From Promethearchaeota archaeon (lineage in GTDB: Archaea; Asgardarchaeota; Lokiarchaeia; Helarchaeales; RDOG01): DNA of 18,316 nucleotides. Under the pieces are notes generated by a model that was not told where the DNA came from, did not search any database, and saw only the letters and a list, made by a program, of their open reading frames with translations. Position 1 is the first letter of the stretch. Every line of letters begins with the position of its first letter. Positions 1-17,312 of this stretch are shown here, in pieces. The position numbers and the translations under genes are program-made. The stretch spans positions 1 through 18,316 of the forward strand of contig RDOG01000034.1 of the NCBI GenBank assembly GCA_011365055.1, written 5' to 3'.

Positions 1-78
1 ATGATTTATCTATTATTTTTGTCTCTAATTTAAATATATTTGATATTGAGATTAAATATGATTGAATATAATTTCTTC

Positions 79-90: not shown

Positions 91-137
91 TTTTTCTATA
101 CATAAAATTAAAATTTAACTAAATCGATAATTATTAT

Positions 138-851: not shown

Positions 852-920
852 GGAAAACCAAAAGATTTTAATTTCAACATCAAAAATAATGAACTGGGAA
901 AAACAGAGGTAAGAAGAAGG

Positions 921-1694
921 ATGTATGTATTCACGTTTTATCTGTTACCTAATGGTAGCACGAATGATCGGAAACGAATCAAGTCGCACATATTTCGTGG
1001 CGTGTTCATGGCGTATTTAAAGGAACATGATCCTGTTTTAATTGAGAAACTTCATGCTTCAAATGAAATTCGCTCCTATGCAATTTCTTATAAACGAAAT
1101 AAAGAATTACGGGAAATGATCGAATTTAGAATAGTCTCCTTGCTTGATGAAGTATCTCAAGCATTGTTACAATCCTTATTAAAGACATCAAGCCAGACAT
1201 TAAACATTCAAGGTGATCCCTATAACCTCGTCAAGATAGGATTTGAAAAAATAGATTATAAAAATTTAGTTATGAACGGAAGAAAGGTTCAAAAATTCAA
1301 CATCCGGTATTTATCGCCTGCTTTTTTCACGCAAAAGGGTAAAAAATTTGATTTAAAGGTCCCTTTACCAGAGCAACTCATTGGAAATCTAGGCTCCATT
1401 TGGAACACCCACGTGTTTCAAGCCGAAAAGATCCCCATTGATGATCTCATACAATACGTGAAGCAATCCGTATGGATGTCAAGTTACCAACTCGAAACCC
1501 GCTTTGCAGATATAGGAAAAAGTGCTCCCAAAAGCGGGTGTGTTGGCTGGGTTAATTACTTAGTTGAGGATGCTTCAAATTCATTAAACCCATGGTTAGA
1601 CATTTTACTAAAATTCGGTGAATATTCAAATGTTGGAGGGAATCGAACCGCAGGACTGGGCGTGATAAAATATAATCCAATAGAATACATATAG
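921..1694 (+). CDS. cas6: CRISPR-associated endoribonuclease Cas6
   Basis: A 257-residue Cas6 family protein, which cuts CRISPR precursor RNA within repeats to make crRNAs. The N-terminal ferredoxin-like fold carries the family pattern HIFRGVFMAYLKEHDP...LHASN at residues 23-48, followed by YAISY. The C-terminal half has KSGCVGWVNYLVED (204-217) and the diagnostic glycine-rich loop GEYSNVGGNRTAGLGVIKY (233-251). Length is usual for the family. His23, His36 and His45 are candidate catalytic residues; I cannot say which acts. The ATG at 921 has a purine-rich stretch (aggtaagaagaagg) directly upstream. It probably shares a transcript with the CARF regulator before it. G+C is higher than in the NosD gene (25 of 60 bases in the line at 1441, against 12 of 60 at 3661), which may reflect transfer. 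No cas1, cas2, effector genes or array are in the window, so its system lies to the left or elsewhere. Confidence 0.9.
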   Translation: MYVFTFYLLPNGSTNDRKRIKSHIFRGVFMAYLKEHDPVLIEKLHASNEIRSYAISYKRNKELREMIEFRIVSLLDEVSQALLQSLLKTSSQTLNIQGDPYNLVKIGFEKIDYKNLVMNGRKVQKFNIRYLSPAFFTQKGKKFDLKVPLPEQLIGNLGSIWNTHVFQAEKIPIDDLIQYVKQSVWMSSYQLETRFADIGKSAPKSGCVGWVNYLVEDASNSLNPWLDILLKFGEYSNVGGNRTAGLGVIKYNPIEYI

Positions 1695-1745
1695 CAAAAA
1701 CTAATCTTTTAGATAAATTCTAATGTATTAAACTCCATAAAATAT

Positions 1746-1752
1746 AAAAAAA
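1746..1752 (-). terminator. Possible U-tract terminator after the PH-domain gene
   Basis: A run of seven A on the plus strand (seven T on the minus strand, followed by further T-rich sequence) lies about 75 bases beyond the stop of the minus-strand PH-domain gene. It sits in the 131-base convergent gap 1695-1825, where I see no CRISPR repeat and no gene. Archaeal termination needs only a U-rich tract, so the call is plausible but weak. Confidence 0.3.
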
Positions 1753-1825
1753 GCGAATTTAAGAGAACTGTTGCTATAAGAGGTTATATTCCTTTAATTT
1801 TGAATAATAGATGTTTATAGCATTT

Positions 1826-2539
1826 CTATTTTTCATTTTTCATTCGTTTCATTAAAAAATCCCTTATCTGTTCGAAATTTTCAATTCCGTCAATTTTTAT
1901 TTCAGGTTTTGTGATGTTAGAATGTTTTGCAGTGTAAATTTCCAAATTTGCCAAGTCATATTTTCTGAAAAGGGGTCCTTGTTTGATTGAGATGTTAATG
2001 ATTTGTTTATATGGCACGATTGTCGTGTTTCTGAACCAAATACCTTTATTGACAATTATCTCCGATTCAGACAATTGATATGAAATAGAGTTACAAAGTT
2101 TCGGAATCCAATACAAAGAAAAGACATAGCCAATTGACAATTCAATAAGAACCAGTACGATTGGTAACAGAACGTGAAGGGGTTCTTGAGTTATTATATA
2201 AAATGGATAGATTGGGGTTTGAAGAAGGAAAAACATTTGACTAAATATAAATATTAAGGATGGTAGAATAATAAACGTAAAACTTGGAAAAATTATTGGT
2301 AAATTATTAGTAATAACAATAATGTATGGTAAAATAAGACAAATAGCAATTATTGGAGCAATAAATAATGATGTCAAAGATAAATAATTATCCATTCCAA
2401 AATAATTTATAAGTAAATAAGGCAAGAGCCATGTAAAAAGTCCTATTAGGATTGATAAAAGAACATACAATTTGTAGATAATTTTCAACTTAGGAGAAGG
2501 TTGAAATTCCTTCTTTAAATCAACATCCAATTTTTTCAT
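1826..2539 (-). CDS. Four-TM membrane protein with C-terminal bacterial PH domain (YdbS-like, bPH_2)
   Basis: A 237-residue protein with four predicted membrane segments (about residues 21-45, 52-76, 82-106 and 122-144) and a cytoplasmic-type C-terminal domain at about 148-230. The last part has the bPH_2 pattern: SISYQLSESEIIVNKGIWFR, then TTIVPYKQIINISIKQGPLFRKYDLANLEIYTA, then a helix (IENFEQIRDFLMKRM). Family knowledge: bPH_2 proteins are membrane proteins of mostly unknown role, often linked to envelope stress or export. Its ATG lies one base after the stop of the upstream NosD-like gene, and its SD (AGAGGAA) is inside that gene's last codons, so the two are translationally coupled. This suggests a membrane partner for the surface beta-helix protein, which is inference. 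The usual relatives carry fewer TM segments before the PH domain. Confidence 0.75.
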   Translation of the reverse strand: MKKLDVDLKKEFQPSPKLKIIYKLYVLLSILIGLFTWLLPYLLINYFGMDNYLSLTSLFIAPIIAICLILPYIIVITNNLPIIFPSFTFIILPSLIFIFSQMFFLLQTPIYPFYIITQEPLHVLLPIVLVLIELSIGYVFSLYWIPKLCNSISYQLSESEIIVNKGIWFRNTTIVPYKQIINISIKQGPLFRKYDLANLEIYTAKHSNITKPEIKIDGIENFEQIRDFLMKRMKNEK

Positions 2540-2540
2540 G

Positions 2541-4157
2541 TTAAGTTCCTCTTTTTAATTCATTTTTAGCAGTTTTATTAAATTCCTTTTTTGAGATTTT
2601 TCTTATATGTATGATTAAATGGGATAAAATACTAATAACAACCACTAATGCAATAATAACCATGTAAATCCAAATTTCCAAATGCCACGGATAATAATAA
2701 GGCTCAGGATTTCTATTTTGGTATGTATTATTTTTTATTTCATTTCCGATACTATTACGTTCAAATACATGTAGAAGGTTTTGATAGAGAGAATTCCAGG
2801 ATATATTGTTATCATCTGAATAAGTTAAATAGACCCCATAAATATTTTCATTTATATTATTGAATAAAATTTGATTTTTATCAGATCTACGTAAATAAAT
2901 TCCATAATATTGGTTTTGATTACATGTATTATTACAAAAAGTATTCAATTCTGAATATTCAATATAAATTCCCTGTCTATTTTGGTTTGCTGTGTTATTA
3001 AAAACTAAATTATTAACTGAACTGTAAAGGTGGATGCTACCAAGATAATAATCGCATAAACTAACAGAGTTATTTTCTAAAGTATTGTTAAAAGAATAAT
3101 ATAGATAAATACCTTGAGAAGATCCAACACTTAGGTTATTATTTGTGAGCGAGTTATTATGAGAAATATATAAATATATTCCTAATGAAAAATTATTAAC
3201 TGTATTATTATCTATCGTAATATTTCTTGAAAATGCTAAATTAATTCCGTATCTAGAATTATGTTCTAATATCGTACTTTTAATCATGCTATCATTACAG
3301 AAAAATAAGGAAATTCCATCCATGGAATTTGAACAATTCATGTTTAAAACATTAATCGAAGAACAATTTAGCAATATTACTTGTCCAACGTTTTCTGGAA
3401 CAACTATTCCACTTTGATGTTTTAAATAATAGATAGGTCGACCATTAACCAAATTGTCTGATGTTATATTGTGGTCTAAATAAGATATAATACTCCCTAA
3501 CAATCCAATACCATCTTGAATGAGAGAATTATTTGAAATTTGAATGTTTTTAGAATATGAAAGTAATAATCCATCATCATTGTAGGATAGTGTATTATTA
3601 ATTATCGTACAATTTTCAGAATTTCTAATTTCCATTCCATTAGAATTATGAATCGCTGTATTGTTATAAACCGTAATATTAATTGAATCATATAAATATA
3701 AACCAATATAGCGGTTATTTTTTAATGTATTATTAATAACTGATACATTTTCAGAATATAAAATTTCAATTCCATCTGAACTGTAAAATATCTCATTATT
3801 ACTTAACATTCCGTTTCTTACATTTCGTAGGTAAATTCCTTGATAGGCATTCTTAACTTGACAATTTTTAATAATGAAATAGGCATCTGTATTCGAAATA
3901 TCAATACCTGAACCGTAACTCTGTAAATTATTATTATCAATTATTTTATTCTCAATAACGTAAGGATTAAATCGTGTTCCATTCCCTTGGCTTGAATATG
4001 AAGCAAAATCTGAGTTTTGCGTTATTTTAATGGATTGATCAAAGTGTGGTGCATTTATAATGCTAGGAATAAGGAATAAAAGTGACATGCACAAAGAAGT
4101 AATTAGTATTATTGTGATCAAAACGCCCAAGATTCGAAACTTCTTTTCGTAATTCAC
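2541..4157 (-). CDS. NosD-like right-handed parallel beta-helix surface protein, membrane-anchored
   Basis: A 538-residue protein with an N-terminal signal anchor (about residues 9-33), a long beta-helix of Asn-rich rungs (about 70-470), and a C-terminal membrane segment (about 494-515) followed by a basic tail. Rungs of roughly 22-24 residues repeat the pattern N-N-x-hydrophobic-x-x-x-x-x-G-I-x-L-x-x-S-x-N (for example NNRYIGLYLYDSINITVYN), typical of the NosD/CASH pectate-lyase-like fold. Many N-x-S/T sequons suggest glycosylation outside the cell. The start is GTG (plus-strand CAC at 4155-4157); the next in-frame Met is inside the signal segment, and GGGAAG lies about 11 bases upstream. 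NosD of bacteria works with the NosF/NosY ABC transporter in copper-site maturation, but no Cu-binding or nos genes are adjacent here, so a copper role is not supported. A carbohydrate-binding or adhesive role is equally possible. Confidence 0.8.
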   Translation of the reverse strand: MNYEKKFRILGVLITIILITSLCMSLLFLIPSIINAPHFDQSIKITQNSDFASYSSQGNGTRFNPYVIENKIIDNNNLQSYGSGIDISNTDAYFIIKNCQVKNAYQGIYLRNVRNGMLSNNEIFYSSDGIEILYSENVSVINNTLKNNRYIGLYLYDSINITVYNNTAIHNSNGMEIRNSENCTIINNTLSYNDDGLLLSYSKNIQISNNSLIQDGIGLLGSIISYLDHNITSDNLVNGRPIYYLKHQSGIVVPENVGQVILLNCSSINVLNMNCSNSMDGISLFFCNDSMIKSTILEHNSRYGINLAFSRNITIDNNTVNNFSLGIYLYISHNNSLTNNNLSVGSSQGIYLYYSFNNTLENNSVSLCDYYLGSIHLYSSVNNLVFNNTANQNRQGIYIEYSELNTFCNNTCNQNQYYGIYLRRSDKNQILFNNINENIYGVYLTYSDDNNISWNSLYQNLLHVFERNSIGNEIKNNTYQNRNPEPYYYPWHLEIWIYMVIIALVVVISILSHLIIHIRKISKKEFNKTAKNELKRGT

Positions 4158-4203
4158 TAATTCTAACTTCCCTACAATTTAGAAAGTAAAATTTGGATTT
4201 CCC

Positions 4204-4218
4204 TTATTTATAAAATAA
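4204..4218 (-). promoter_or_regulatory. TATA-box-like promoter for the NosD-like / PH operon
   Basis: Read on the minus strand this is TTATTTTATAAATAA, a good archaeal TATA-like element about 50 bases upstream of the GTG start. The predicted leader of roughly 25-30 bases contains the GGGAAG that could serve as a ribosome binding site. Confidence 0.45.
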
Positions 4219-4466
4219 TCTTGTCTTCCCTATATATTACTGCTATGGCACGATAATTTTCTTTGTACAAGAATTAGAATTTAAAAAATATTGTGATAAT
4301 TTTTATTCTTGAAAATATTTAGACTCTGACAAATGCCTTTTCATCATTTTCTTTCGAATCTCAGGCTATTCTCGTCATCATCGTCTTGTATTAGAGTTAG
4401 TTTTAGTTGTTTTTATATTTTTTCATTAGAAATTCGTATCAATAATAACTTACTAGAAATAGAATA

Positions 4467-4474
4467 TTTTATAT
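4467..4474 (+). promoter_or_regulatory. TATA-box-like promoter for the small two-TM protein
   Basis: TTTTATAT lies about 50 bases before the ATG at 4525, giving a predicted leader of about 25 bases with no clear SD. It is one of several AT-rich tracts in this region, so the exact box is uncertain. Confidence 0.35.
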
Positions 4475-4524
4475 CAAATTATTTTTAACCTTAATATTGA
4501 ATTATAATGTAAATCTTATTTAAG

Positions 4525-4776
4525 ATGGAAGCGAGGAATTTGTTATTAGAAATAAATAAGAGACATGTTATTGCTCTTGCACTTCTTATATTTAGTTTAA
4601 TAGCGACAATATGGTTATTTATCGCAATGCTAACACAAATTACAATATCGATTGCTGCTATAAATCCAATAGACTCATCTATCATAGGATTATTAGCTTG
4701 GTCCTTGTTAACAGCTGCTTTAATTGGCATTATCACTGGAATCGTGTTTGTCTTGATTGGAATGCGAAAAAAATAG
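4525..4776 (+). CDS. Small two-TM membrane protein of unknown function
   Basis: An 83-residue protein with a charged N-terminus (MEARNLLLEINKRH), one membrane segment at about residues 15-37, a short polar loop with NPIDSS at about 46-51, a second segment at about 53-78, and a basic MRKK end. Both ends are predicted cytoplasmic. I prefer this frame over the overlapping ones because its membrane segments are clean, it has an upstream TATA-like element, and a T-tract follows its stop within about 10 bases. It is transcribed away from the NosD-like operon and towards the end of the subtilase-like gene, with no operon partner. I do not recognise a family. Confidence 0.5.
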   Translation: MEARNLLLEINKRHVIALALLIFSLIATIWLFIAMLTQITISIAAINPIDSSIIGLLAWSLLTAALIGIITGIVFVLIGMRKK

Positions 4777-4785
4777 TTTCTCTTA

Positions 4786-4792
4786 TTTTTTT
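4786..4792 (+). terminator. U-tract terminator after the small membrane protein
   Basis: Seven T bases begin about 10 bases after the TAG stop, within a longer T-rich stretch. A second run of T lies at about 4866-4874. No hairpin is needed for archaeal termination. The gap 4777-4922 holds nothing else that I can support. Confidence 0.4.
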
Positions 4793-4922
4793 ATTCCTTT
4801 AAATTAGAATCAATAAGAATGGGAGAAAATATTAAAGCGGAATATATTAGAGTCGAATTGAACTATTTTTTTTTCGAATATCAAGTATTTTTAATCATCA
4901 TATACTATTAAATTAACAAGAT

Positions 4923-7900
4923 TTAATACTTTTTAGATTTTTTCATAAGAAAATCATATCGATCTTTCATTTGTTTTAAAAAGTATAGCTTTTCTTCTTC
5001 GTCCATTTTTTTATCTTTAATAATTTGTTCTGACTCTATGAGAAATGCCTGAAAACTGCTTAATATATTTCCAATTTCTCTCTTGGATTCTTCTTTTAAT
5101 TCGATTGCTTCTAATTTTTTATGCCATCGATTTCTATTAAAATAGAAAAATCCAACGATTGCTGCGAAAATAGCGGTTGAAGTTATGTACACCGTTAGAA
5201 TGATTAAAAATTCGCTTTCAGGTATTGTTGGGTTAGGAGTCCTATCTGGTCGTAAAGCTGAAGGTCCCATCTCGAAGGTTACATGTCCAAAACTAATTGC
5301 GTAATCTGTAGAATTTGTAACAAAAACTACTGAATAAATTCCTTCTTGATCTGACCATTGTCCTAAATAAGCGGAAGTATACCACCCGTCAACCACGTGA
5401 AATGCAAGAAAATAAAACAATGAGCCATTAGGAAGAATGAAAATGGCAAATATCTGTAGGTCGCTAATATTATTTAGCTGCTTATCTTGAACGTGAATTT
5501 CAAAAGTTATGAAAAGATCATTAACGTAATATCTATTATCCTCACGTTCACTGTAGGTAAAAACTTCCATGGATAAGGTGTTACTTATTGCCCAATGAAT
5601 TGTGTTATTTAGTAAAATATAGTTATCTTCTTTAAAAACGTGTTCATTTTTAAGGAAATCGCTATCACCAATCACTAAAAGTTGTCCAAATGTCTCATTT
5701 TGGTATGAATTGGTTTTATTATATCCGATTATTATTTCATCAGGTGCATCATTCCAAACCATGGTCCTATTAACTTGGCTGTCATTAAATATCCAAAAAG
5801 AAGTCAAAGATAAATCACTTACGCCCTTTAAGAGCGGATCAGATGAATTCAAGTTGGATGTAGATAAAATTTTTGTTTGGTCTATTGTGGTGTTTAAACT
5901 ATATCCATATCTTTCTGTTATATTATTTATTTGTTCCGTACTTTTGGAATTTTCGTTCATTATAACGATCAAACTATTATTCTGTTCAACAAATCTAGTT
6001 AAATTATCCACTTCACTAGAAGTAAGATTCACGATAGGATCTATTAACAGAACTGCATCTAATAAGGAAAGTAAAGTATCATTTAATTCAATTGATTGTC
6101 CCATTAATTTTGCTACGCTAAAATCATCTATATCAAAGCCTTCTGAAACACATAAATTATATAATTCAAAATATTCTCCATAAATAGTTTCTAATCGTTC
6201 ATTGAATGCTAACAATAAATCCGAAGCATTCTCTAGATTAAAATCATTAAACTCTGACAATCCTGAAATGTTAAATTCGACATTCGGTTTATAAAATAAG
6301 AATCTCCCTTTTGGGTACGTGATTTCAAAATCCACCGTGATGTTATTTAATATAATTTCATTTGATTTTACAATAATTTTCCCGACGTATTTTCCTGCAA
6401 TTGGAAACGTTGGAATCATTGTCGTCACTGGTCTGGTATCAAAATACGTTAAATTAAATGCTGTCGGTAAAGTAATGAAATTTTCTAAAATAGATTTATT
6501 TTCTGATTCTAGCTCCATGTTAATATTTTGTAGAGGCGTGTTTGTAAAAAAGGAGAAATTAATTAGCGAAAAATCAGTCGGAAATTTAATTAAAAATGGA
6601 CTGTCTGGTATTTTAATGGGAAATATTAAGCTCATGGGCATGAACGTTGGTTTAGAACCATTATTTATGAAAATGTTTCTTGTGATAAAATTATCTAATG
6701 GATAAGATTCATTTTCTAAGCTTATGGAAATGTTCAAAAATTCCTCTAAAAATGCTGTTGATAGGAAATATTCTGAAATGGCATCTTCTGAACCTGCGAC
6801 CCAAAAAATCTCATATGATGATGCCTCTAAAGGCACGTACGAAAAATTAACCCACTGGAACTCACCTGGTTCCATTGTATAGAGCTGCAACACGTCAATC
6901 GTGATAAATTGCTCATCTTCGCGTGTTCTATGCAACATTAATGCTACATCAACATCATCCAACGTCAAGCTGCCCAAATTCATTACCAGACACTGAGTAG
7001 TTATCACGTTACCGACTTTTTCTGTTCTGAACAGATTTTCAACTTTTAATAAGGCAATATCACCTTTAGGATTGCCAAATCCTTTGCTCTGAGTTAGGTT
7101 GATATTTTGTAAAAGGCAACTCGTTGAATTTCCCATGCTCAATGAGATGTTGATCATTGCTTTTTCATTTGCTCCCAAAATACCATTTTCTGTTAAATTC
7201 CAACTCATGGCCATGCTTAGATTTTTAAAGGCGCTCATAAGCGGGTTTGAAACATCTTCATAATAACTTTGATTTGAAAAGGAATTTGCTATTGATGAAG
7301 TAGTTGCATTCATGCCAAAAAAGAAATTATTTCCTATTTCCGTATCATTTATAAAAATAACGTCATTTTGAGGAATGTAAGTACTATCATTATCCTCTTG
7401 ATTGTTAAGAAATAGATCCGTGTGCCATAATGAATGAAGAATCACAGAATAATTGGCAGAATCTTGATTAATGATTGTTAAAGTATTTCTAAAACCATCA
7501 ATATCTTCCCAAGCATCCTCTTTTACAATTATATAAAAAGGACCAACTTTAAGGACTCCTAAACCACTTGAATTCCCATTCTCAGCCGTTAAATCATGAA
7601 ACTCCCTTAATATTTCTCCTTCAGAAAACCAAGTCAACGTATCATTATATTCTAATGCATAAAAACCGAGTAATAAGTGAGATGTATTTTCTGTTGAAGT
7701 AAAGTTAGTTAGCATCACGTGAGATCCATAGTTACTCACGAACATCGACAAATTTCTTTGAGCATTTTCTGATTGAACATATCCATCATATGGGAGAAAG
7801 GGGGTGAATACTCTATTTTCTGTCAAATTTGCAACCATGTTATTTTCTCGTAAATATTGTTGTGCTCGAGTCAAATTTATCATCCCTGCTCCTTGATAAT

Positions 7901-9281
7901 TATAATCGCCAGTTACTAAGTTATCTGAAGTTTCATGTAAAATTATTTTAATGGTGTTGGGATCTAGATATTGATTTTGTTCTATCAATAAAGCAACGGC
8001 TCCTGCAACATAAGCAGCTGCACCAGTCGTTCCATTTGCTACTGAATAATTGTTTCCGAGATTGGTTCCATAAGTTGCAAAATCCACAAATTCTGAAAAA
8101 TTCAAAGGTAGGTTATTTAAAGTGGAGATTGTTGAAGTAATGTTGATTCCTGGAGCAAGAATGTCCGGTTTTACAAAAAAATCTAATGTAGGTCCTCTAC
8201 TACTATTTTCCCAGGCTATTGGTATTCCTGACATGTTATTGTATGCACCAACAGTAATGGCACCTAAAGCCATTCCGGGAGATCCAATACTCAAATATGA
8301 TTGTGGATAATCTCCTGCCGCTGCGATAACAATTATTCCACTTTCTACTGCTTCATTTATAGCTAAATTTAGTGGATCTGTTGGAAGTCCTGGCAAACCA
8401 AAAGCCTGAGTATCAAACGCTAGTGTTATGATATCTGCTCCGTGAGATAAACTCCAATCTATACCAGCTATGATCCAAGACCAATAGCCAATGCCAAGAT
8501 CACTCAAAACCTTTACATTGAACAAGTAAGCTCCTGGAGCTACACCAGTTCCATTAGTTCCTGCAATTATTCCTGCTACGTAAGTTCCATGTCCATTAAT
8601 ATCAATTGGATATGGATTTAAATCTGCAAAATTAACGTGTCCTATTATTTTTAAATCGCTTAACATGGAATAATTGATATTTTGGAACAAGTCTTCTAAC
8701 CCGATGCTTGTATATTGTGAAATATCGCCTAAATCAGGATGAAATGGATCAATTCCAGTATCTAAAACAGCTACTATAACATTGGAGCCATTATATCCTC
8801 CTGTTCCATTTACATTTCCAATCAAGCTATTGCTAGAAAGACAGATGGATTCACTATATTCTTGAGGATTGGAAACCTGAGGAATTGTTACTTGTTTATC
8901 TAACCAAATAAATTCCACATATTCTTCTAAGGATATTGATTTTATTACATTAAAGGAAGTTTCAATGGTAATTGATGATATAAATGTATATTTTACAATA
9001 ATATTAACCAATTCGGAATATTTATAGCGAAATTCATCAAAATAGTCATTCAAATCCGTAAAAACAACAATTACTTTTAGATTTGAGTTTGGATTAGTTT
9101 CCCATTCCTTTGTTATTAAAGGATCTATTTTAACGTCAACTTTTTCATCGATATTTTTTGGATTATTTTGTAGTATTGGAACAAATCCATTAATAAATCC
9201 AGTAATGGAAAAAGATAAGATGAAAACAAAGATCAATATACTTGAAATTAGAATTTTTCGACTATTCTGCGTTCCTTTCAC
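4923..9281 (-). CDS. Membrane-anchored subtilase-fold protein with altered active site, fused to a GldG/IFT52-like domain
   Basis: A 1452-residue exported protein. Domains in order: signal anchor (about 11-33); I9-like propeptide region (67-133); S8 subtilase domain (165-470); beta-rich linker; CARDB-like domain (about 738-840); GldG/IFT52 ABC_transp_aux-like domain (about 995-1235, with DAVLLIDPIVNLTSSEVDNL and LLVIGDSDFLKN...LLNNTIHWA); Ig/macroglobulin-like domain (1238-1337); TM (about 1358-1380); charged, coiled cytoplasmic tail to 1452. Asp174 (VAVLDTGID) and His231 (NGHGTYVAG) are canonical. The nucleophile motif reads GTTGAAAYVAG, with Thr419 in the Ser place and Ala for Pro; Asp324 (AAAGDYPQS) replaces the oxyanion Asn; LAFD replaces the substrate-strand SLGG. 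It has more than 40 N-x-S/T sequons. The start is GTG with no clear SD, overlapping the ATPase gene by 20 bases, so it is probably translationally coupled. Fold is confident; loss of normal protease activity is inferred. Confidence 0.85.
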   Translation of the reverse strand: MKGTQNSRKILISSILIFVFILSFSITGFINGFVPILQNNPKNIDEKVDVKIDPLITKEWETNPNSNLKVIVVFTDLNDYFDEFRYKYSELVNIIVKYTFISSITIETSFNVIKSISLEEYVEFIWLDKQVTIPQVSNPQEYSESICLSSNSLIGNVNGTGGYNGSNVIVAVLDTGIDPFHPDLGDISQYTSIGLEDLFQNINYSMLSDLKIIGHVNFADLNPYPIDINGHGTYVAGIIAGTNGTGVAPGAYLFNVKVLSDLGIGYWSWIIAGIDWSLSHGADIITLAFDTQAFGLPGLPTDPLNLAINEAVESGIIVIAAAGDYPQSYLSIGSPGMALGAITVGAYNNMSGIPIAWENSSRGPTLDFFVKPDILAPGINITSTISTLNNLPLNFSEFVDFATYGTNLGNNYSVANGTTGAAAYVAGAVALLIEQNQYLDPNTIKIILHETSDNLVTGDYNYQGAGMINLTRAQQYLRENNMVANLTENRVFTPFLPYDGYVQSENAQRNLSMFVSNYGSHVMLTNFTSTENTSHLLLGFYALEYNDTLTWFSEGEILREFHDLTAENGNSSGLGVLKVGPFYIIVKEDAWEDIDGFRNTLTIINQDSANYSVILHSLWHTDLFLNNQEDNDSTYIPQNDVIFINDTEIGNNFFFGMNATTSSIANSFSNQSYYEDVSNPLMSAFKNLSMAMSWNLTENGILGANEKAMINISLSMGNSTSCLLQNINLTQSKGFGNPKGDIALLKVENLFRTEKVGNVITTQCLVMNLGSLTLDDVDVALMLHRTREDEQFITIDVLQLYTMEPGEFQWVNFSYVPLEASSYEIFWVAGSEDAISEYFLSTAFLEEFLNISISLENESYPLDNFITRNIFINNGSKPTFMPMSLIFPIKIPDSPFLIKFPTDFSLINFSFFTNTPLQNINMELESENKSILENFITLPTAFNLTYFDTRPVTTMIPTFPIAGKYVGKIIVKSNEIILNNITVDFEITYPKGRFLFYKPNVEFNISGLSEFNDFNLENASDLLLAFNERLETIYGEYFELYNLCVSEGFDIDDFSVAKLMGQSIELNDTLLSLLDAVLLIDPIVNLTSSEVDNLTRFVEQNNSLIVIMNENSKSTEQINNITERYGYSLNTTIDQTKILSTSNLNSSDPLLKGVSDLSLTSFWIFNDSQVNRTMVWNDAPDEIIIGYNKTNSYQNETFGQLLVIGDSDFLKNEHVFKEDNYILLNNTIHWAISNTLSMEVFTYSEREDNRYYVNDLFITFEIHVQDKQLNNISDLQIFAIFILPNGSLFYFLAFHVVDGWYTSAYLGQWSDQEGIYSVVFVTNSTDYAISFGHVTFEMGPSALRPDRTPNPTIPESEFLIILTVYITSTAIFAAIVGFFYFNRNRWHKKLEAIELKEESKREIGNILSSFQAFLIESEQIIKDKKMDEEEKLYFLKQMKDRYDFLMKKSKKY

Positions 9282-10944
9282 CAGTTATATATTTTTTAGT
9301 TGATAAATATATGAAATAATCTACCATGTCCACCTCTTCTTTTGTTTCTATTCCATGAACACTCATCCCATATTTATTTAAACTATCTAAAACATTGCTT
9401 AGAGCTATATTCGACTCTTTAGTAGTGAAGATTCTAAGGCTTTCACCTCTTTGAATAACTGAATCAACTGTATCTAGCGCTTCTAATAATTGAATTGCTT
9501 TTGAATCAAACAATTCTAAGGTAATATCAATGACAAATCCTCCACCTGGGAGTCGGGATTTTAGTTCGTAGGGTGTCCCAAAGTCTACAAATCCCTTTCC
9601 TTTTATATAAATTGCTACTTTATCACAATATTCAGCTTCTTCTGGAAAGTGTGTGATAACTACAAAAGAAATTCCATATAAGCGATTTATTGAATCAATA
9701 TAGTCCCAAAATTCGTGTCGTTTGACTGGATCTAGACCTGAAGTTGGTTCGTCTAAGAAGATTATTTTAGGATAATGCACGAGTGATATGGCCACTGAGA
9801 CTCTTCTTTGTTCTCCACCTGATAAGTAGCTTACTGTTTCATTTCCCTTAGTTGAAATTCCCAAATCTTTAAGTGCTTGTTTTCCACGTCTAATCAACTC
9901 CAATTCATCAATGCCATATTGCCTTCCAAAATATAAAATATTTTCAAGAGGCGTGAAATCCCCATACATTCTACTTAAATCCTGAGGGACATAACCCATG
10001 AATGGTGCAACTTTTTTTTGTTGTTTCACATTAATTCCACAAACGCTTATTTCACCAGAATCAAAATCAATTTCTCCAATTATCGATTTAATAGTTGTTG
10101 ATTTTCCTGAACCTGATTCTCCAACAATACCTAAAATTTCTCCTTGTTTAATTCGAAAGGAAACGTCTCTTAATACTGGTTTTTCTTTATTTCCATAAGT
10201 CACAGTCAGCCCTTTAATATCTAGAACGTGTTTATAGGTTGTTTGTTTTTGACTCTTTGTTTTTATAAAAAATAGCATTTTATCAGCTAAAATATCTTCT
10301 TGGAAAATTCTCCTTCTTAACGCGTCAAAACGATTTATCCCACCAACAGATGCATTAATACCACTCAAATTTCTCTTTCCGGTTTTTCCTTCAGATATCG
10401 AAAGAACAAAATAATTGCGCAACATTCTTAATTCCCGTCGTTCAGTGAAAACTTGTCCTTTACAATAAACAAATTCACCCGACTCATGCCATTGACCCCT
10501 AATTAATGCTGTTACTTCTGCAAATTTTAGTGTATCATTTAACCACGTGCATGCATCTCGAATATCACTCCCTTCAAAGAACCAATATTCTCCAAAATTC
10601 TTTCTATAGGTATTCTTTAAAACAATAAGCGTTGCTCTAACGTCATGTCTCCTGTTTATTCCAATTGTTATGAGATAGTCAACAGGTAAATTAAATTTTT
10701 TTCCTTTTTCTTTATCTATCTCAGCTTCTTTCAAATATACAGCTAAATAATTATCGAAGGTTGATGAATAAGCTTCAACTAAGATTCCTTTTCCCCGAAA
10801 TCTCCTGAATGTATTGCCATATATTCCTTCTACTTCGACTTCTATCACTTTATCCTTTCTAACACTAGCCCATTCAATTGCTTCTTTTAATGAATTTCTA
10901 TCTTGCCCTCCGAAGGCTGCCCGTTCGAAAAACTTTATGCTCAT
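9262..10944 (-). CDS. ABC transporter ATP-binding protein with an uncharacterised N-terminal domain
   Basis: A 560-residue protein. Residues 241-470 form a complete ABC nucleotide-binding domain: Walker A GESGSGKST (275-283), Q-loop Gln321, signature LSGGEQ (374-379), Walker B IIFLDEP (394-400), D-loop SGLD and switch His432. All catalytic residues are present. A C-terminal extension (about 470-550, ending near VDYFIYL) matches the tails of ABC-2-type exporter ATPases. Residues 1-235 precede the NBD and form a soluble alpha/beta region rich in Arg, Trp and aromatic residues, with two GINR segments (95-98 and 202-205). I do not recognise this domain and see no membrane segment. An SD (TAGGAG) at the end of the permease gene lies 9 bases upstream of the ATG. 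It sits between the permease gene and the subtilase-like gene, so it should power that permease. Confidence 0.9.
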   Translation of the reverse strand: MSIKFFERAAFGGQDRNSLKEAIEWASVRKDKVIEVEVEGIYGNTFRRFRGKGILVEAYSSTFDNYLAVYLKEAEIDKEKGKKFNLPVDYLITIGINRRHDVRATLIVLKNTYRKNFGEYWFFEGSDIRDACTWLNDTLKFAEVTALIRGQWHESGEFVYCKGQVFTERRELRMLRNYFVLSISEGKTGKRNLSGINASVGGINRFDALRRRIFQEDILADKMLFFIKTKSQKQTTYKHVLDIKGLTVTYGNKEKPVLRDVSFRIKQGEILGIVGESGSGKSTTIKSIIGEIDFDSGEISVCGINVKQQKKVAPFMGYVPQDLSRMYGDFTPLENILYFGRQYGIDELELIRRGKQALKDLGISTKGNETVSYLSGGEQRRVSVAISLVHYPKIIFLDEPTSGLDPVKRHEFWDYIDSINRLYGISFVVITHFPEEAEYCDKVAIYIKGKGFVDFGTPYELKSRLPGGGFVIDITLELFDSKAIQLLEALDTVDSVIQRGESLRIFTTKESNIALSNVLDSLNKYGMSVHGIETKEEVDMVDYFIYLSTKKYITGERNAE

Positions 10945-10956
10945 ATCATTTCACTC

Positions 10957-12111
10957 CTAGATAGTTGATTTCTTTAGATAAAACACTGCGAATGCTAACC
11001 CTAGACTCACAATACCAAACATGGATATCCTAAATATGTCATCCAATGCTCCTGGAACATAATATTTATAGGCAATATCATTAAATCCACTGCTAGCTAA
11101 TGGTAAGGGTAGTATCGCCCCAAATATATCTGAGCTAACGAAATAAGTTAATATGAACATCATAATAAAAGCTAGCAAGAAATATTGAGATGCTTGAAGG
11201 CGTGAAGTACTCACAACTGAAATAAATAAACCTAATGTGATTCCAGCAAATGCAAGAGTTAATAATAACAAAATCAATAAAAGGACTCCTCCTATTCCGC
11301 CACTAATAGGCATTTGATAAACAAAAGTTGAAAGTCCAATTAAAATTAAAATCTGGAAAAATCCAATAATCATGTATGCAAGTAATTTCGCTAAAATGAC
11401 CTCTGCCTTTCGAGCAGGTGTTAATAACATTCTCTTTAAAGGTACATCACCAACAACGCTTTGACTCGCTGTCATCAATGTGGAGCCAAAGATTGAAATA
11501 GCAAAAACAGGGCCTGCTGTTCTGAATAAATTTGTGTTATAAAACCACAATTGGTCCATCGAAGGTAATATTTCATCAGCATAGAAATCGTGTTGAACCT
11601 TAAAAATCGCAATAGCCTCAATAATAGCGTTAAGTGCATTGGCTTGTCCTGCAATATTTGTTGCATCCGTAGTAATATTCATATAAACAACTGATATCGT
11701 TGTAATTGCAGTCTCAAATCCTTCTGGAATTTCTATATATGCATCTATTTTTCCTGCTTGTAACTCGTACCACGGTACTTTTGTATCGATTTCTGCTTTA
11801 GTATAATTACGAATAACCACATAGTCTGTTCCTTTATCATCCACTAAATTATCCAATGTCCTTGTAAAATTCAATGATAAATCTTGTCCTGGATAACCTG
11901 TGGAAGTATCTAAGTCAATAATACCAATAACTACAGTGGATTTACCTTGTATAGCACTAGAGGTCGAACCTATAGCAAATATTACTAATATCGGAAGAAG
12001 AAACATGATTAGCAGCGCTTGCTTATCCTTAAAAAGTGATTCAAGCTCTTTTAAAATCAAGTTAATGACTCTACTAGCTCTTGATTTAATTTTTGAAAAA
12101 ACACTTGCCAT
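10957..12111 (-). CDS. ABC-2 type transporter permease
   Basis: The preferred start is ATG at 12109-12111, giving 384 residues, because GAGG stands 7 bases before it; an in-frame TTG at 12117 would be only one base from that SD. Topology is typical of ABC-2 exporters: a cytoplasmic amphipathic N-terminus, TM1 (about 32-50), an extracytoplasmic domain (about 55-193) opening with the family pattern VVIGIIDLDTST, then five more TM segments (about 198-220, 243-263, 273-298, 308-328 and 360-379). The coupling-loop motif LKRMLLTPARKAEVILAKLL follows TM2. It is the first gene of the operon, 12 bases before the ATPase gene. Two copies, or one with another permease, would form the pore. The substrate is unknown. 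The GldG-like module downstream suggests a GldF-like motor role, which is inference. Confidence 0.88.
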   Translation of the reverse strand: MASVFSKIKSRASRVINLILKELESLFKDKQALLIMFLLPILVIFAIGSTSSAIQGKSTVVIGIIDLDTSTGYPGQDLSLNFTRTLDNLVDDKGTDYVVIRNYTKAEIDTKVPWYELQAGKIDAYIEIPEGFETAITTISVVYMNITTDATNIAGQANALNAIIEAIAIFKVQHDFYADEILPSMDQLWFYNTNLFRTAGPVFAISIFGSTLMTASQSVVGDVPLKRMLLTPARKAEVILAKLLAYMIIGFFQILILIGLSTFVYQMPISGGIGGVLLLILLLLTLAFAGITLGLFISVVSTSRLQASQYFLLAFIMMFILTYFVSSDIFGAILPLPLASSGFNDIAYKYYVPGALDDIFRISMFGIVSLGLAFAVFYLKKSTI

Positions 12112-12301
12112 ATTCAAACCTCATCTCATATTTTTTGACTTGAAATTTGCTAAAATAATTAAAATTTTGACTGATCTAATCTATAATAAATTATATGTTC
12201 TTAATATTTTAAAATAGATTATCTTTATTGAAGTAATCTTGATGAAATAAACTTATTTTTATAACTTTGGTATTTATAAGATACGTGAGGAGAAAAATTT
12301 T
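12112..12301. promoter_or_regulatory. Divergent promoter region between the ABC operon and the second ABC ATPase
   Basis: A 190-base AT-rich region. On the plus side ATTTTTATA (about 12255-12263) could be the TATA box, with SD GTGAGGAG at 12285-12292 and a 9-base spacer to the ATG. On the minus side ACATATAATTTATTATAG (about 12181-12198) could drive the permease operon with a leader of about 50 bases that includes the GAGG before 12111. The shared region would allow joint control of the two ATPases; no operator is obvious. Confidence 0.4.
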
Positions 12302-13341
12302 ATGGAACAAACCAATGAAAAAAAATCTACATCCAACATTAAAGCAATTGCTTTCTCAAAAAAGAAATTAATTGAGTTAAGGAACGTTACCGTTACGATA
12401 AATGAAAAAAATATAATTGATAATATAAGTTTTTATGCCGAGAAAGGTGATATTTTAGGCGTAATTGGAGGATCAGGGGCTGGTAAAACGACTTGCATGA
12501 GGTTATTGACAGGACAAATGACTGCTACAAAAGGTAAGGTAACTGTATTAGGCATAAATTTGACCGGATCAAAAGAAATTAATCGTCTTAAACAAAGAAT
12601 TGGATATGTTCCTCAAATGGGTCGTGTTGAAGATACTTATTTTCAATTTAATGCGTTGAGAAACGCCTATTATTTTGGAGCAATGTATGGAATGGATCAA
12701 AAAACCATTTATGAAAGAGCTCGAAAAATTTTGGGTATATTAGGTATGAATGAAGAATTATTAAAGAAGAAAGTCAAGGATTTATCTGGAGGCGAACAGA
12801 AAAACGCGTTTCAATTGCAGTAGGATTAATACATGAACCTGATATTTTATTTCTAGATGAACCAACAACAGGATTAGACCCCACGTTACGCGTTGAAGTA
12901 TTGAATTTTTTAAAATTATTGAATATAAATCTCGGTCAGACTATTGTTGTCGTTTCGCATGATTTAGAGACTGCAACGTATTGTACAAAAATCGTGATTT
13001 TAAGAGAAGGGAAGATCATTGACTTTGGAAATCCTGAAGACATGATAAAAACCATAACTGGTGGAAAAAAAGTTAAGGTAGAATGCCATGAAATGGATGA
13101 CGAGATTCAAGAAAAATTCTTTAATATTAAAGGTTTAGAATACATTTTAAAAGTCGGAAGAAGAAGGATTGATCTTTTTATTCCTGGCATAGAAAATAAT
13201 TTAAAAGGGTTAATCGAAGAATTCGATCGGTTAGGGTTAAAAAATATCGTGAAAGGATTTAATATCGATAAAGTAAGATTTATGGATTATTTTAGAATAA
13301 AAATGAAAACTGAAGAAAAAGAAAATTTTGAAATTACTTAG
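12302..13341 (+). pseudogene. Second ABC transporter ATP-binding protein, interrupted by a single-base frameshift
   Basis: Frame one runs 12302-12823 and reads Walker A GGSGAGKTT (56-64), Q-loop Gln105 and signature LSGGEQ (161-166), then leaves the family after EQK and stops. From 12805 on, the next frame reads RVSIAVGLIHEPDILFLDEP (Walker B), TTGLDP, the switch His in VVVSHDLE, and a tail ending near FMDYFRIKMK, to the stop at 13341. Adding one A to the five-A run at 12800-12804 restores an intact 346-residue protein with every catalytic motif. The break is therefore either a homopolymer error, a recent mutation or a recoded site. The repaired protein is a paralogue of the minus-strand ATPase, including its C-terminal tail, but has a 23-residue basic N-terminus instead of the 235-residue domain. 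It is divergent from the permease operon and may have supplied an alternative or partner NBD. Confidence 0.85.
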
Positions 13342-13867
13342 TTCTTTTTTTAAAGAAGTCAATTGATGCTTTAGTTAAATCTTCGAATGCCTTATCTACC
13401 TCTATTCCTGATTTAGCAGAGGCTTCATAAAACTTTACTGCGCCTAACTCTTTTGCTTTTTCTTCTCCTTTATCTTTTGGAACCTCTCTGTTCTTTCCTA
13501 GGTCAATTTTATTTCCCACTAATATGAATGGAACATCGCCACTAAACTTAGTTAATTCTCCAAGCCAATTCTCGAGATTTTTAAAACTCTCTTCATTGGT
13601 TATATCGTATACAAGCATGCAACAATGACTGCCTTCCAAGTAAGATTCTCTTATTTCTTTGAAAATCGCTTGCCCACCAATATCCCAAATTAGTAATTCC
13701 GCTTGAAATTCTTCCAAAATAATCGTTTTTAACGAAATATCAAATCCAAGCGTCGGTTTATAATCACTTCCAAAGGCTTTATCGACGTGTCTAATAATTA
13801 ATGATGTTTTTCCTACTCCTCCATCTCCAAGAACGACTCCTTTCAAAAAAATCTTCTTCTGATTCAT
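13334..13867 (-). CDS. Small Ras-superfamily GTPase with mixed Arf-like and Rab-like motifs
   Basis: A 177-residue single-domain GTPase with all G boxes: G1 GDGGVGKTS (14-22), G2 Thr39 in PTLGFDIS, G3 WDIGGQ (61-66), G4 NKID (119-122) and G5 EASAK (148-152). G2 and G3 look like Arf/Arl proteins (PTxGF, WDxGGQ), while the region after G3 (CCMLVYDITNEESFKNLENW, VPFILVGNKIDL, FYEASAKSG) looks like Rab/Ras. Family knowledge: Asgard archaea carry many such GTPases. There is no C-terminal Cys for prenylation and no N-terminal Gly2 for myristoylation; it ends in a basic KKRTK. The role is unknown. It overlaps the end of the convergent ABC ATPase gene by 8 bases. Its upstream region carries a set of short repeats, described separately. 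No strong SD is visible before the ATG. Confidence 0.9.
   Translation of the reverse strand: MNQKKIFLKGVVLGDGGVGKTSLIIRHVDKAFGSDYKPTLGFDISLKTIILEEFQAELLIWDIGGQAIFKEIRESYLEGSHCCMLVYDITNEESFKNLENWLGELTKFSGDVPFILVGNKIDLGKNREVPKDKGEEKAKELGAVKFYEASAKSGIEVDKAFEDLTKASIDFFKKRTK
13345..13351 (+). terminator. U-tract terminator after the second ABC ATPase, inside the convergent GTPase gene
   Basis: Seven T bases begin three bases after the TAG stop of the plus-strand ATPase. On the other strand the same bases encode the Lys-rich end of the GTPase, so the terminator and the convergent gene's tail share sequence. Confidence 0.45.
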
Positions 13868-13882
13868 GATATATCACACTTT

Positions 13883-13960
13883 TTCCGACACTTCTTCCAA
13901 CTTAAGTTATTCTCCTCAACTTATGATGTTTTCCGAAAGTTATTCTGGCAATACTTCCGA
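13883..13960 (-). repeat. Three TTCCGA hexamers and a repeated AAGTTATTCT upstream of the GTPase gene
   Basis: TTCCGA occurs at 13883-13888, 13931-13936 and 13955-13960, with start spacings of 48 and 24 bases. AAGTTATTCT occurs at 13904-13913 and 13937-13946. All are within 95 bases upstream of the GTPase start, in the otherwise gene-free 234-base gap 13868-14101. They could be operator sites or chance in a short AT-rich stretch. Confidence 0.4.
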
Positions 13961-14074
13961 AATACATGCGATGAATTTTGAAAATTATTTTTTGTTTACC
14001 TTATTTACATTATACTTCTTTTAAAATTTTAGTTCCCTATTTTTAAATTTCAAATCAATTTGATTTTATTTATT

Positions 14075-14090
14075 AAAAAATGTGAAAAAA
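14075..14090 (-). terminator. U-tract terminator after the tldD-tldE operon
   Basis: Two runs of six A on the plus strand (14075-14080 and 14085-14090) read as two T6 tracts on the minus strand, starting about 11 bases beyond the tldE stop. This is a good archaeal-type termination signal. Confidence 0.5.
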
Positions 14091-14101
14091 TAGAAGCATC
14101 C

Positions 14102-15427
14102 TCATGACGATATGATTAATCCATCAAAACTCATGAAAGGATATAAACAATTTTGCATGAACTTTCTTTCTTTCGTAATATTTAAGCATCTTTTAATCAT
14201 GGTTAACACATTTCCGCTTACATTCCCGCCTTTAATAGGTTCAGTTAATTCCCCATTTTTAATTGTATAAGCATTGCGAATCTCCGTGCCAAATGAACCA
14301 CTTAATCTATCGGGATTAAGCCAAGAGAATTTTTCAACATATAAACCCTCTTTAATATTTGAAATAAGTTCTTCATAAGTCAAATCTCCTTCCAATATTT
14401 CTAAATTAGTAATATTATTCACGACATTGCCATCCATTGTTCGTGCTCCGTTACCTGTTGATTTCGTGTTTTCTAAAATCGCATATCTTTGATCATAAAT
14501 TCGATTCTTAAATATTCCATCCTGAATGAGTATTGTTGATCTCGTTGGAGTGCCTTCTCCATCCCAAGGAAAAGTGCTTAAACATCCTTCTAATAATCCA
14601 TTATCTTTAATTGTTAAATTGGGAGATGACACCTCTTTATCGATTTCAAAGCTAGATACTTTTTCAAAATGAGCTTGACCCGTAGCATGATATCCAATAA
14701 CTGGATTAATAGCGTGCATTAAAATTTTAGGAGGAAAAACAATTGTTGCATCTTGTTTTGATCTTGGCTGTTTTGCCTTTAGCGTATCGACTGCTAATTT
14801 CGCCCAATGTTTCATTCTATTTTGAATATCAAGATGTGCTATTTGCTTGTAAAGATTAACATCCCAAAATTCTGCAAGATTTTTGCCCTCTTCTGCTTTA
14901 ATTGCGAATTCTAAAAATAAATAGGTGCTCTCATCACTAAGATTAATGCCTTTATAATTCCTTAAATAATTCTCCCGTATTATTACACCTAATCTACCAA
15001 ATGTTGGAACAACATTCTTTTCGTCTTTAATACAAGAATTTAATTCTTCTGATAAATCATCCAATACTGATGTTGGATCTTTTATTATTTTGGATTCTGT
15101 AGTTTTTATATCGTTATATAATCCTTTATCTGGAAATTCATACTTTGTTGTTTTATTGATCTTTGACAAGGTCATGCATTGATCAATTATTTTATCCAAT
15201 CTTTCTTCTTTTAATTCACTTGAATGAATGACTCCCATTCCAGGCTCTTCTTTCTGATTATATATCCTTATCATGTACTCCATGCTTTGAACTTCTCTAA
15301 AAGAATCAACACTATCTTTCAAGAATATGTTTTCATGATTCTTTTTTGTTTTAATGAGGATGTCATATGCTTCAATTTTTTTTGCTTTTAAACGCTTTTC
15401 AATAAAGTCTAATATTTCTTGACCCAT
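14102..15427 (-). CDS. tldE: TldE/PmbA family protein, non-metal partner of TldD
   Basis: A 441-residue member of the TldD/PmbA (modulator of DNA gyrase) family. The N-terminal half matches the family's curved alpha/beta domain (FLKDSVDSFREVQSMEYMIRIY; LDKIIDQCMTLSKI). The C-terminal beta-rich domain carries the family pattern ending SGSFGTEIRNAYTIKNGELT...GGNVSGNVLTMI (about 373-407). It has no HExxxH motif, as expected for TldE, which forms the heterodimer and shapes the peptide channel while TldD supplies the zinc. The gene begins 6 bases after the tldD stop, with an SD-like GGATGAG at that junction. Together the pair would degrade or trim unfolded or modified peptides. The natural substrate in this organism is unknown. 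Confidence 0.92.
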   Translation of the reverse strand: MGQEILDFIEKRLKAKKIEAYDILIKTKKNHENIFLKDSVDSFREVQSMEYMIRIYNQKEEPGMGVIHSSELKEERLDKIIDQCMTLSKINKTTKYEFPDKGLYNDIKTTESKIIKDPTSVLDDLSEELNSCIKDEKNVVPTFGRLGVIIRENYLRNYKGINLSDESTYLFLEFAIKAEEGKNLAEFWDVNLYKQIAHLDIQNRMKHWAKLAVDTLKAKQPRSKQDATIVFPPKILMHAINPVIGYHATGQAHFEKVSSFEIDKEVSSPNLTIKDNGLLEGCLSTFPWDGEGTPTRSTILIQDGIFKNRIYDQRYAILENTKSTGNGARTMDGNVVNNITNLEILEGDLTYEELISNIKEGLYVEKFSWLNPDRLSGSFGTEIRNAYTIKNGELTEPIKGGNVSGNVLTMIKRCLNITKERKFMQNCLYPFMSFDGLIISS

Positions 15428-15433
15428 GTTATC

Positions 15434-16828
15434 TCATCCTGGACTTATTAATCCTTTTTTTGCTCGTATATACGGTCCCCCACTTGTAACCGGGACGAAA
15501 TCAAATTCACCTTTACCGCACGTGCCTGCATGGAAAAAAGCTTCATCCTTACTTATGGCATCAATGTCTTGTAGGAATTCCAAAACAGAACCACTTAAGG
15601 TTATGGATTTTAATAATTTTGTTTTTTCGCCCTTCTCAATTAAATAACCTTTTTTTGAAGAACATTGCATCCCTCCTCCGAGTGGATCTTCCATGCCAAA
15701 ATATCCCCTCACTAGCATGACTCCACGATCTATAGTTTCGATCATTTCCTCCAATTTATGATCACCCGATTCAAAAAATGTATTGGTCATTCTGACTAGT
15801 ACTGGATGTTGAAAACTCTCTCTTCTCCCATTTCCACCAGGCTTTGCCTTTAATTTTGATGATGTCATTCGATCATGTAAGAAATTTTTTAAAATTCCAT
15901 CTTTTACCAAGGTTGTTTTTTCACTCTTAATTCCTTCATCATCAAAAAAATAACTGCCTAATTTATTTGGGACTGCTGGTGAATCACAAATGACGCAAAT
16001 TTCAGATGCAACTTTTTTATTTAAATATGCTTTTAAATAACTTCTATCTCGAAGCACTTGATCTGCTTCTAAACCATGCCCAAAACTTTCGTGTGCCACC
16101 AAACCTGTCATATCGGGATCTAAAATTAAAGGTAGCATTCCTGCTGGACAATGGTCTGCTTTTAACATGTCTAATGAATTATTAGCAATTTGTTCTAAAT
16201 CTAATTTCATGACTTCGTCGAAAATTTCATATCCCATTTCACCACCCGTGGAAAAATAATCAAAATCAACAGTGGCTCCTTCTTTTGCGATTGGTTGAAG
16301 GAATAAACGCACTCGTGGAATTGTTTGGGATAATATAGATCCTTCGTTATTTACAAATATTCTTTTCATTAAATGCTCTGCATACGAAACCGCAGGATTA
16401 ATGATTCTTTCATCAAATTTCTGAAAAAATGTGAAAAGCTCTCTAACCCTCTCTACTTTCTCTTCAAGTGGTACGGTACTGGGATCAATTTTTAATTTAA
16501 TCGTTGTATCAGTTTTCCAACCCTCAAATTCTTGAATGAGATCTCCCTTATCAGAAACTGAGGGAATTTTTTTCATGAGATCTAGTAATCCTGATTGATC
16601 TTGAAAGGAATATTCTCTCCAATAACCAACATATGTACGAGCTGCTGCACCAGAATTTTGAGAACTTACAATGGATTCCTCAGATCTTGTTTTTAAAATA
16701 CGAAGACTTTCATAAGAATCATATAAAATGTCAAAATATTGATTTTTTCTTGAAAAATTCCCTGAAAAATTTTCAAATTTTTGAATAATTTCTTCTTTTG
16801 ATAATAAATTCAGTTGATTTGATATCAA
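15434..16828 (-). CDS. tldD: TldD family zinc metallopeptidase
   Basis: A 464-residue metallopeptidase subunit. The zinc motif HESFGHGLEAD stands at residues 246-256 (HExxxH, with His246 and His251 as ligands and Glu247 as the base). The third ligand of characterised TldD, a Cys near the C-terminus, is matched by Cys437 in HAGTCGKGEFDFVPVTSGGP. GGNGRRESFQHPVLVRMTNTF and GYFGMEDPLGGGMQ are further family blocks. The start is TTG (plus-strand CAA at 16826-16828), chosen because AGGAGAG lies exactly 7 bases upstream and no in-frame ATG occurs until about residue 85, inside the conserved N-terminal domain. It is the first gene of the tldD-tldE operon and is divergent from the small beta-rich gene. 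Confidence 0.94.
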   Translation of the reverse strand: MISNQLNLLSKEEIIQKFENFSGNFSRKNQYFDILYDSYESLRILKTRSEESIVSSQNSGAAARTYVGYWREYSFQDQSGLLDLMKKIPSVSDKGDLIQEFEGWKTDTTIKLKIDPSTVPLEEKVERVRELFTFFQKFDERIINPAVSYAEHLMKRIFVNNEGSILSQTIPRVRLFLQPIAKEGATVDFDYFSTGGEMGYEIFDEVMKLDLEQIANNSLDMLKADHCPAGMLPLILDPDMTGLVAHESFGHGLEADQVLRDRSYLKAYLNKKVASEICVICDSPAVPNKLGSYFFDDEGIKSEKTTLVKDGILKNFLHDRMTSSKLKAKPGGNGRRESFQHPVLVRMTNTFFESGDHKLEEMIETIDRGVMLVRGYFGMEDPLGGGMQCSSKKGYLIEKGEKTKLLKSITLSGSVLEFLQDIDAISKDEAFFHAGTCGKGEFDFVPVTSGGPYIRAKKGLISPG

Positions 16829-16835
16829 ATATTCT

Positions 16836-16842
16836 CTCTCCT
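16836..16842 (-). promoter_or_regulatory. Ribosome binding site that fixes the TTG start of tldD
   Basis: On the minus strand this reads AGGAGAG, a strong Shine-Dalgarno, 7 bases before the TTG codon. It is the main evidence for the non-ATG start. Confidence 0.7.
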
Positions 16843-16891
16843 GAAAATTTCGCTGATCTCTTCATTAATAAAATTTGTAGCTATCTATTAA

Positions 16892-16904
16892 TTTTTATAT
16901 TTTT
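16892..16904. promoter_or_regulatory. Shared TATA-like tract between tldD and the small beta-rich gene
   Basis: TTTTTATATTTTT can be read as a TATA box on either strand. It lies about 65 bases from the tldD start and about 60 bases from the ATG at 16959, a workable distance for both divergent genes. Which strand uses it, or whether both do, cannot be told from sequence. Confidence 0.35.
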
Positions 16905-16958
16905 GTAATAATGATAAATTATTTCTTATTACTTAATGCTTTTTTAGGAAGAGAGAAA

Positions 16959-17291: not shown

Positions 17292-17312
17292 TTCCTAATA
17301 TTTCTTCAAATG

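Follow-up and report, generated by a model that had tools for sequence, protein, structure and literature searches.

What does a giant membrane-anchored protein with a subtilase-type head do beside the genes of an ABC-2 transporter? This question was raised by a three-gene cluster on the minus strand of contig RDOG01000034.1, from a Promethearchaeota archaeon of the Helarchaeales, and we addressed it by computational analysis of positions 1 to 18,316 of that contig (the window). The cluster encodes an ABC-2 permease (10957..12117, 386 residues, with a TTG start and an alternative ATG two codons in, at 12111), an ABC ATPase (9262..10944, 560 residues) and the giant protein (4923..9281, 1452 residues, GTG start), in which a subtilase (S8) fold is joined to a GIFT domain. 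As a first-pass annotation of this DNA had described, open reading frames, Pfam matches and hydropathy place a permease, an ATPase and a protein anchored by a transmembrane (TM) helix in close succession, with a gap of 12 bases between the first two genes and an overlap of 20 bases between the second and third. This tight spacing suggests that the three genes are co-expressed. The reading that we favor, with our confidence about evenly divided for and against it, is that the giant protein acts at the cell surface as a receptor or gate, with a subtilase-GIFT architecture that has lost catalysis.

Catalytic slots of the subtilase head

The S8 fold spans residues 165-466 (7884..8789; Peptidase_S8, E 2.6e-43; all positions within the cluster are on the minus strand) and appears to be a pseudoprotease. 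Active S8 proteases carry an Asp/His/Ser triad together with an oxyanion Asn. In the giant protein the triad Asp and His are retained as Asp174 (8760..8762) and His231 (8589..8591), Thr419 (8025..8027) replaces the catalytic Ser, and Asp324 (8310..8312) replaces the oxyanion Asn. The two nearest relatives, P0005 and P0006, have Ala in the Ser slot and Asp in the oxyanion slot. Since the three proteins share the oxyanion Asp and have Thr, Ala and Ala in place of the Ser, these residues make a role as a processing protease unlikely, and the annotation's view of the outer head as a processing module is probably wrong.

Comparison with P0005, a full-length relative 77% identical to the window protein (P0001), revealed that the S8 region is the best kept (86% over residues 140-480, against 75-79% from the middle of the protein onward). 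As it is best kept despite its lost catalytic residues, the head would be constrained for a non-catalytic role. Residues 40-139 (8865..9164), which by position alone would correspond to the subtilase prodomain, formed the second lowest region at 58% identity. An oxyanion Asp is compatible with function in PC2, and the Asn-to-Asp change in kex2 markedly reduced activity (PMC4182778). In site-1 protease (S1P), the oxyanion residue N338 is held by S8 loops on which the GIFT subdomain packs (PMC11231238); the corresponding residue is altered here, as would fit a GIFT-S8 contact now used for regulation and no longer for catalysis.

Topology and the GIFT fold

Two stretches of the giant protein exceeded a hydropathy of 1.6, namely residues 6-37 at the N terminus (2.46) and residues 1356-1381 at the C terminus (2.38), the latter being the predicted TM helix (5139..5216), followed by a putative cytosolic tail of residues 1382-1452 (4926..5138). 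Two weaker hydrophobic stretches, residues 1069-1088 and 1275-1297, lie inside the modelled GIFT and sandwich fold. Residues 1-1360 contain 52 N-glycosylation sequons, compared with 20.3 +/- 3.8 in 500 shuffles (maximum 34), and this excess fits a glycosylated ectodomain on the outside of the cell.

Between the S8 fold and the TM helix lie a beta-supersandwich domain (residues ~493-737, 7071..7805), a further beta-rich part (residues ~742-987, 6321..7058) modelled mostly as strands with a few short helices, the GIFT domain (residues ~991-1236, 5574..6311) and a membrane-proximal beta-sandwich (residues 1237-1345, 5247..5573). The model of the middle region matched the beta-supersandwich of carbohydrate enzymes in the VIA-align table, and S1P was not among the matches listed. 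We preferred this table because the top Foldseek match, alpha-2-macroglobulin (E 3.0e-9), gave a TM-score of 0.15 and an rmsd of 23.

The first-pass annotation had likened residues ~995-1235 to GldG/IFT52 and had proposed a structural search as the test. That search recovered a GIFT fold, of the GATase-like alpha/beta type, in residues ~991-1236, in agreement with profile searches; as modelled, this region is a member of the GIFT domain superfamily. Matches to Pfam families were weak and below their cutoffs: IFT52_GIFT (E 3.3e-6, 26.8 bits, cutoff 27.2), DUF4350 (2.2e-5, 25.3 bits, cutoff 30.4) and ABC_transp_aux (0.0047, 16.6 bits, cutoff 34.7). The nearest solved relatives were IFT52 and OST48/WBP1. 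The GIFT domain and the adjoining beta-sandwich, which was modelled for the window protein only and aligned in relatives, align together to OST48/WBP1 across 299-306 residues, the rmsd of 12-13 reflecting a different angle between the domains. By sequence profile, OST48/WBP1 reached only E 0.076, much the same as the 0.08 of an unrelated GTPase. The GIFT domain has been proposed to be sugar-binding (PMC7226087).

The S8-GIFT family

A search with the S8 region returned 2413 proteins at E 1e-10, of which we examined the best 120, a sample biased toward kin of the window protein; further members of its clade may lie below these. A FastTree phylogeny was built from 119 proteins (the partial P0051 was excluded) and rooted on P0088. 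The oxyanion slot held Asp or Glu in 61, Asn in 57 and Arg in one, and the 61 formed a single clade (support 0.999). Written in the order Asp, His, oxyanion and Ser, their slots read DHDA (28 proteins), DHDT, DHDS and DHDF (seven each), DRDG (six), DHDL (two), and GHDA, SEDG, SMEA and SAEA (one each). Ala, Phe, Leu or Gly thus fills the Ser slot in 47 of the 61. Ser is retained in seven, which may be active, given that PC2 works with an oxyanion Asp. The sister group under this rooting (support 0.957) comprised seven canonical S8 proteins, and because six of them have a GIFT domain soon after S8, the tree suggests that the pairing came first and that catalysis was lost later.

Using a profile made from eight altered-slot proteins (E < 1e-5), we found GIFT in 60 of 62 altered-slot proteins, P0051 included; the two without it are shortened (946 and 863 residues). 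It was also present in nine of the remaining 58 S8 proteins. The size of this family and the occurrence of GIFT in other S8 proteins contradict the annotation's proposal that a subtilase head was gained by the GldG of this operon. ABC_transp_aux matched 31 of 34 scanned S8-GIFT proteins at E 0.01, several of them below its curated cutoff, and OST48_N matched one of the 34 (E 0.002).

Tail length was likewise conserved: 73-85 residues follow the C-terminal hydrophobic peak in 50 of the 62, and 14-26 in eight proteins from two subclades. The other four are P0006, P0014 and P0051, without a clear TM helix, and P0034, which has 42 residues and is named partial. An IPEL...I.N consensus is common to the tails (aligned in 33 of 62). 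The near-constant length and the consensus point to a cytosolic partner, which need not be the ABC ATPase.

Organism names accompany 20 of the 62 altered-slot proteins, and the named hosts (Helarchaeota/Helarchaeales, Promethearchaeota, Lokiarchaeia, Thorarchaeota, Freyarchaeota and Jordarchaeaceae/Jordarchaeum) are all groups that we take to be Asgard archaea. A GIFT domain with a TM helix ~120 residues farther on was seen in proteins from Helarchaeota, Lokiarchaeia, Thorarchaeota, Freyarchaeota and Jordarchaeaceae, joined to a subtilase in which catalytic residues are mostly gone. P0122, from Njordarchaeum guaymaensis, has an S8 domain with a canonical triad (residues 171-456), a GIFT domain (575-808) and a C-terminal TM helix, an S1P-like order. 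A genome scan with the giant-protein alignment and three scans of viral contigs found no relative. Among plasmid and phage records, the matches listed (10 of at least 5000, 5 of 287 and 5 of 37) consisted of generic ABC ATPases and of S8 proteases, the latter covering 15-24% of the S8-GIFT queries.

The transporter pair and neighboring genes

The window holds both an ABC2 membrane domain and a matching complete ATPase, the pair expected of an ABC-2 exporter. The permease matched ABC2_membrane_3 (E 2.5e-21); its hydropathy profile shows a first TM segment, a long loop and then more TM segments, and it had no match among solved structures by sequence up to E 1. The ATPase matched ABC_tran (E 1.7e-28). 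Segments that we take to be its Walker A, signature and Walker B motifs are intact and invariant across five aligned proteins, its own included, and its nearest solved nucleotide-binding domains (NBDs) are those of ABCA3, ABCA4 and ABCA1. It begins with an extension of 235 residues (10240..10944) of no known family: residues 1-232 had no Pfam match up to E 1, and the best match in the PDB reached only E 0.15. Five proteins bear this extension, counting the window's own, and a scan of genomes with it found no relative. One of the others is named Candidatus Helarchaeota, the name carried by the ATPase relative P0008, which is 82% identical and designated partial.

A second ABC ATPase (12302-13341, plus strand) diverges from the operon and is split into two reading frames (12302-12823 and 12901-13341) by a break near 12800, for which gene decay to a pseudogene or faulty assembly may account. 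The first part of this ATPase shares 34% identity (51/149) with the NBD of its operon counterpart. Further along, a Ras-family small GTPase (13334-13867, minus strand; Pfam Ras, 3.3e-50) belongs to a gene type abundant in Asgard archaea and, like the name of P0008, fits an Asgard origin of the window; two adjoining TldD/PmbA-type genes occupy 14102-16828 on the minus strand. On the other side, 765 bases downstream of the giant gene and on the same strand, a NosD-like beta-helix protein (2541-4157, minus strand) has a C-terminal hydrophobic segment, judged by eye, and is followed by a bPH_2 protein (1826-2539). An HFX_2341_N/Csa3-like protein and then Cas6 lie at 138-1694 on the plus strand; no further cas family was matched among the 16 of 19 window open reading frames (ORFs) scanned with Pfam. 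Matches to a sigma-70-type promoter consensus were at chance (38 against 43.0 +/- 7.2), the host being archaeal.

Weighing the explanations

On the receptor or gate reading, the ectodomain would bind a peptide or glycan ligand through the retained S8 cleft, the carbohydrate-type folds, or both, and a signal would reach the ATPase and permease by way of the one C-terminal TM helix and the tail, and so license export. Alternatively, the ATPase cycle may move the ectodomain, which would then pass exported cargo on at the surface. Either way of working would resemble the GIFT subunit of GldFAG and the pseudoprotease receptor CspC, as a likeness of mode and not as membership in either. One observation weighs against this reading. 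Apart from the window, contigs with relatives of the ATPase and contigs with relatives of the giant protein do not coincide in size, which argues weakly against linkage in the genomes concerned. We rejected it as proof of operon loss because contig breaks could explain it: P0005 starts nine residues later than the window protein, and P0008 is partial. The same pattern, together with the contrast between a large family and an extended ATPase found in so few proteins, speaks for a less probable though serious explanation, in which the giant protein stands alone on the Asgard cell surface (as a glycan- or S-layer-related scaffold) and the ABC-2 neighborhood is a local arrangement with no shared machine. 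The tight gene spacing, with the co-expression that it suggests, counts against a stand-alone protein, as does the conserved tail insofar as its cytosolic partner is the transporter, and the absent linkage may merely reflect short contigs.

A true archaeal GldFAG whose GldG acquired a subtilase head, the core of the annotation's proposal, strikes us as improbable. Its gene set (an ABC-2 permease, an ATPase and a GIFT-TM protein) and the GIFT fold stood up, and the frequent ABC_transp_aux matches in the family agree with it. The proposal fared less well elsewhere: the nearest solved relatives of the GIFT region are IFT52 and OST48/WBP1, and neither the GldF nor the GldG model, both presumably present in the library searched, matched the permease or the giant protein up to E 10. 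The GldA model gave the operon ATPase 127.5 bits against a cutoff of 402.6 (the broken second ATPase scored 77.8), there was no other Gld match in the window proteins that were scanned (Pfam covered 16 of the 19 ORFs, NCBIfam 10), and the S8-GIFT pairing, being found in other S8 proteins too, did not originate in this operon. The structural matches listed did not include GldG, which is no evidence that likeness is absent. A shared GldFAG-like machine of the three proteins is unproven. Lower still we rank a regulatory protease of the S1P type, still able to cleave by means of a Thr nucleophile, its products being exported or removed by the ABC pair. The order of S8, beta domain, GIFT and TM helix is that of site-1 protease (PMC11231238), the Asp and His are retained, some clade members keep the Ser, and PC2 works with an oxyanion Asp; yet the nearest relatives have Ala in the Ser slot, most of the clade has Ala, Phe, Leu or Gly there, and the kex2 substitution lowers activity (PMC4182778).

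Evolutionary implications

Asgard archaea are the archaeal group closest to eukaryotes. GIFT recurs in GldG, OST48/Wbp1, IFT52 and S1P, and so in three eukaryotic systems: oligosaccharyltransferase (OST), intraflagellar transport (IFT) and S1P-mediated SREBP processing (PMC11231238, PMC7226087). In humans the module occurs in proteins of glycosylation, the cilium and cholesterol control. Asgard homologues of WBP1/Ost48 were reported by Eme et al. (2023) as restricted to Heimdallarchaeia, including Njordarchaeales (PMC10307638). It is a long shot that an ancient Asgard surface family of dead subtilases, each with an OST48-like module of GIFT, beta-sandwich and TM helix, supplied from archaea, together with catalytic-type S8-GIFT proteins such as that of Njordarchaeum, the GIFT modules of eukaryotic S1P, OST48 and perhaps IFT52, and serves in Helarchaeota as the outer gate of an ABC-2 exporter. 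Descent of S1P from the altered-slot clade was rejected on S8 sequence: with P0041 and P0122 as queries, S1P ranked behind many subtilases from bacteria and archaea; nor was it among the best 60 of 129 matches listed for the window protein. In structural comparison the bacterial GATase-like 3soz and 2gk3 reach the same Z as S1P, so structural likeness alone does not single out S1P. On this account we slightly lowered the probability of the scenario above.

Comparison with known systems

In the GldF-GldA-GldG system of Bacteroidota, GldF is the permease, GldA the ATPase and GldG the GIFT-type auxiliary protein. The window encodes the same three-part set, but it is archaeal, and its giant protein carries an S8 head and a supersandwich. 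NosDFY is an ABC-2 system that includes NosD; the NosD model scored 94.9 bits on the NosD-like neighbor against a cutoff of 300, and the 765-base gap argues that this gene is likely a separate unit. OST48/WBP1 shares the GIFT domain, the middle beta-sandwich and the TM helix, but it lacks an S8 head and belongs to OST rather than to an ABC transporter; OST48_N had no Pfam match in the window protein up to E 1. IFT52 is a protein of the IFT-B trains in the cytosol and has neither an S8 domain nor a TM helix. S1P (MBTPS1) has S8, GIFT and a C-terminal TM helix in common with the window protein, which departs from it in the Ser and oxyanion slots; MBTPS1_4th had no Pfam match in the window protein up to E 1 and scored above cutoff in the relatives P0041, P0043 and P0048. 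CspC and CspA are likewise subtilase folds with a degenerate triad that act in signal sensing, CspC being the proposed bile-acid germinant receptor (PMC6636752); they differ in being soluble and in having a jelly-roll insert, and the passages of that source drawn on here mention no GIFT or ABC partner. We found no paper on Asgard S8-GIFT proteins or subtilases in the open-access PMC literature, subscription papers and preprints lying outside the search. What is new here is a variant that joins known kinds, a pseudo-subtilase, a GIFT domain and an ABC-2 transporter; the S8-GIFT proteins give studies of how S1P and OST48 arose a definite archaeal set for comparison, and the window offers a testable ABC-linked pseudoprotease.
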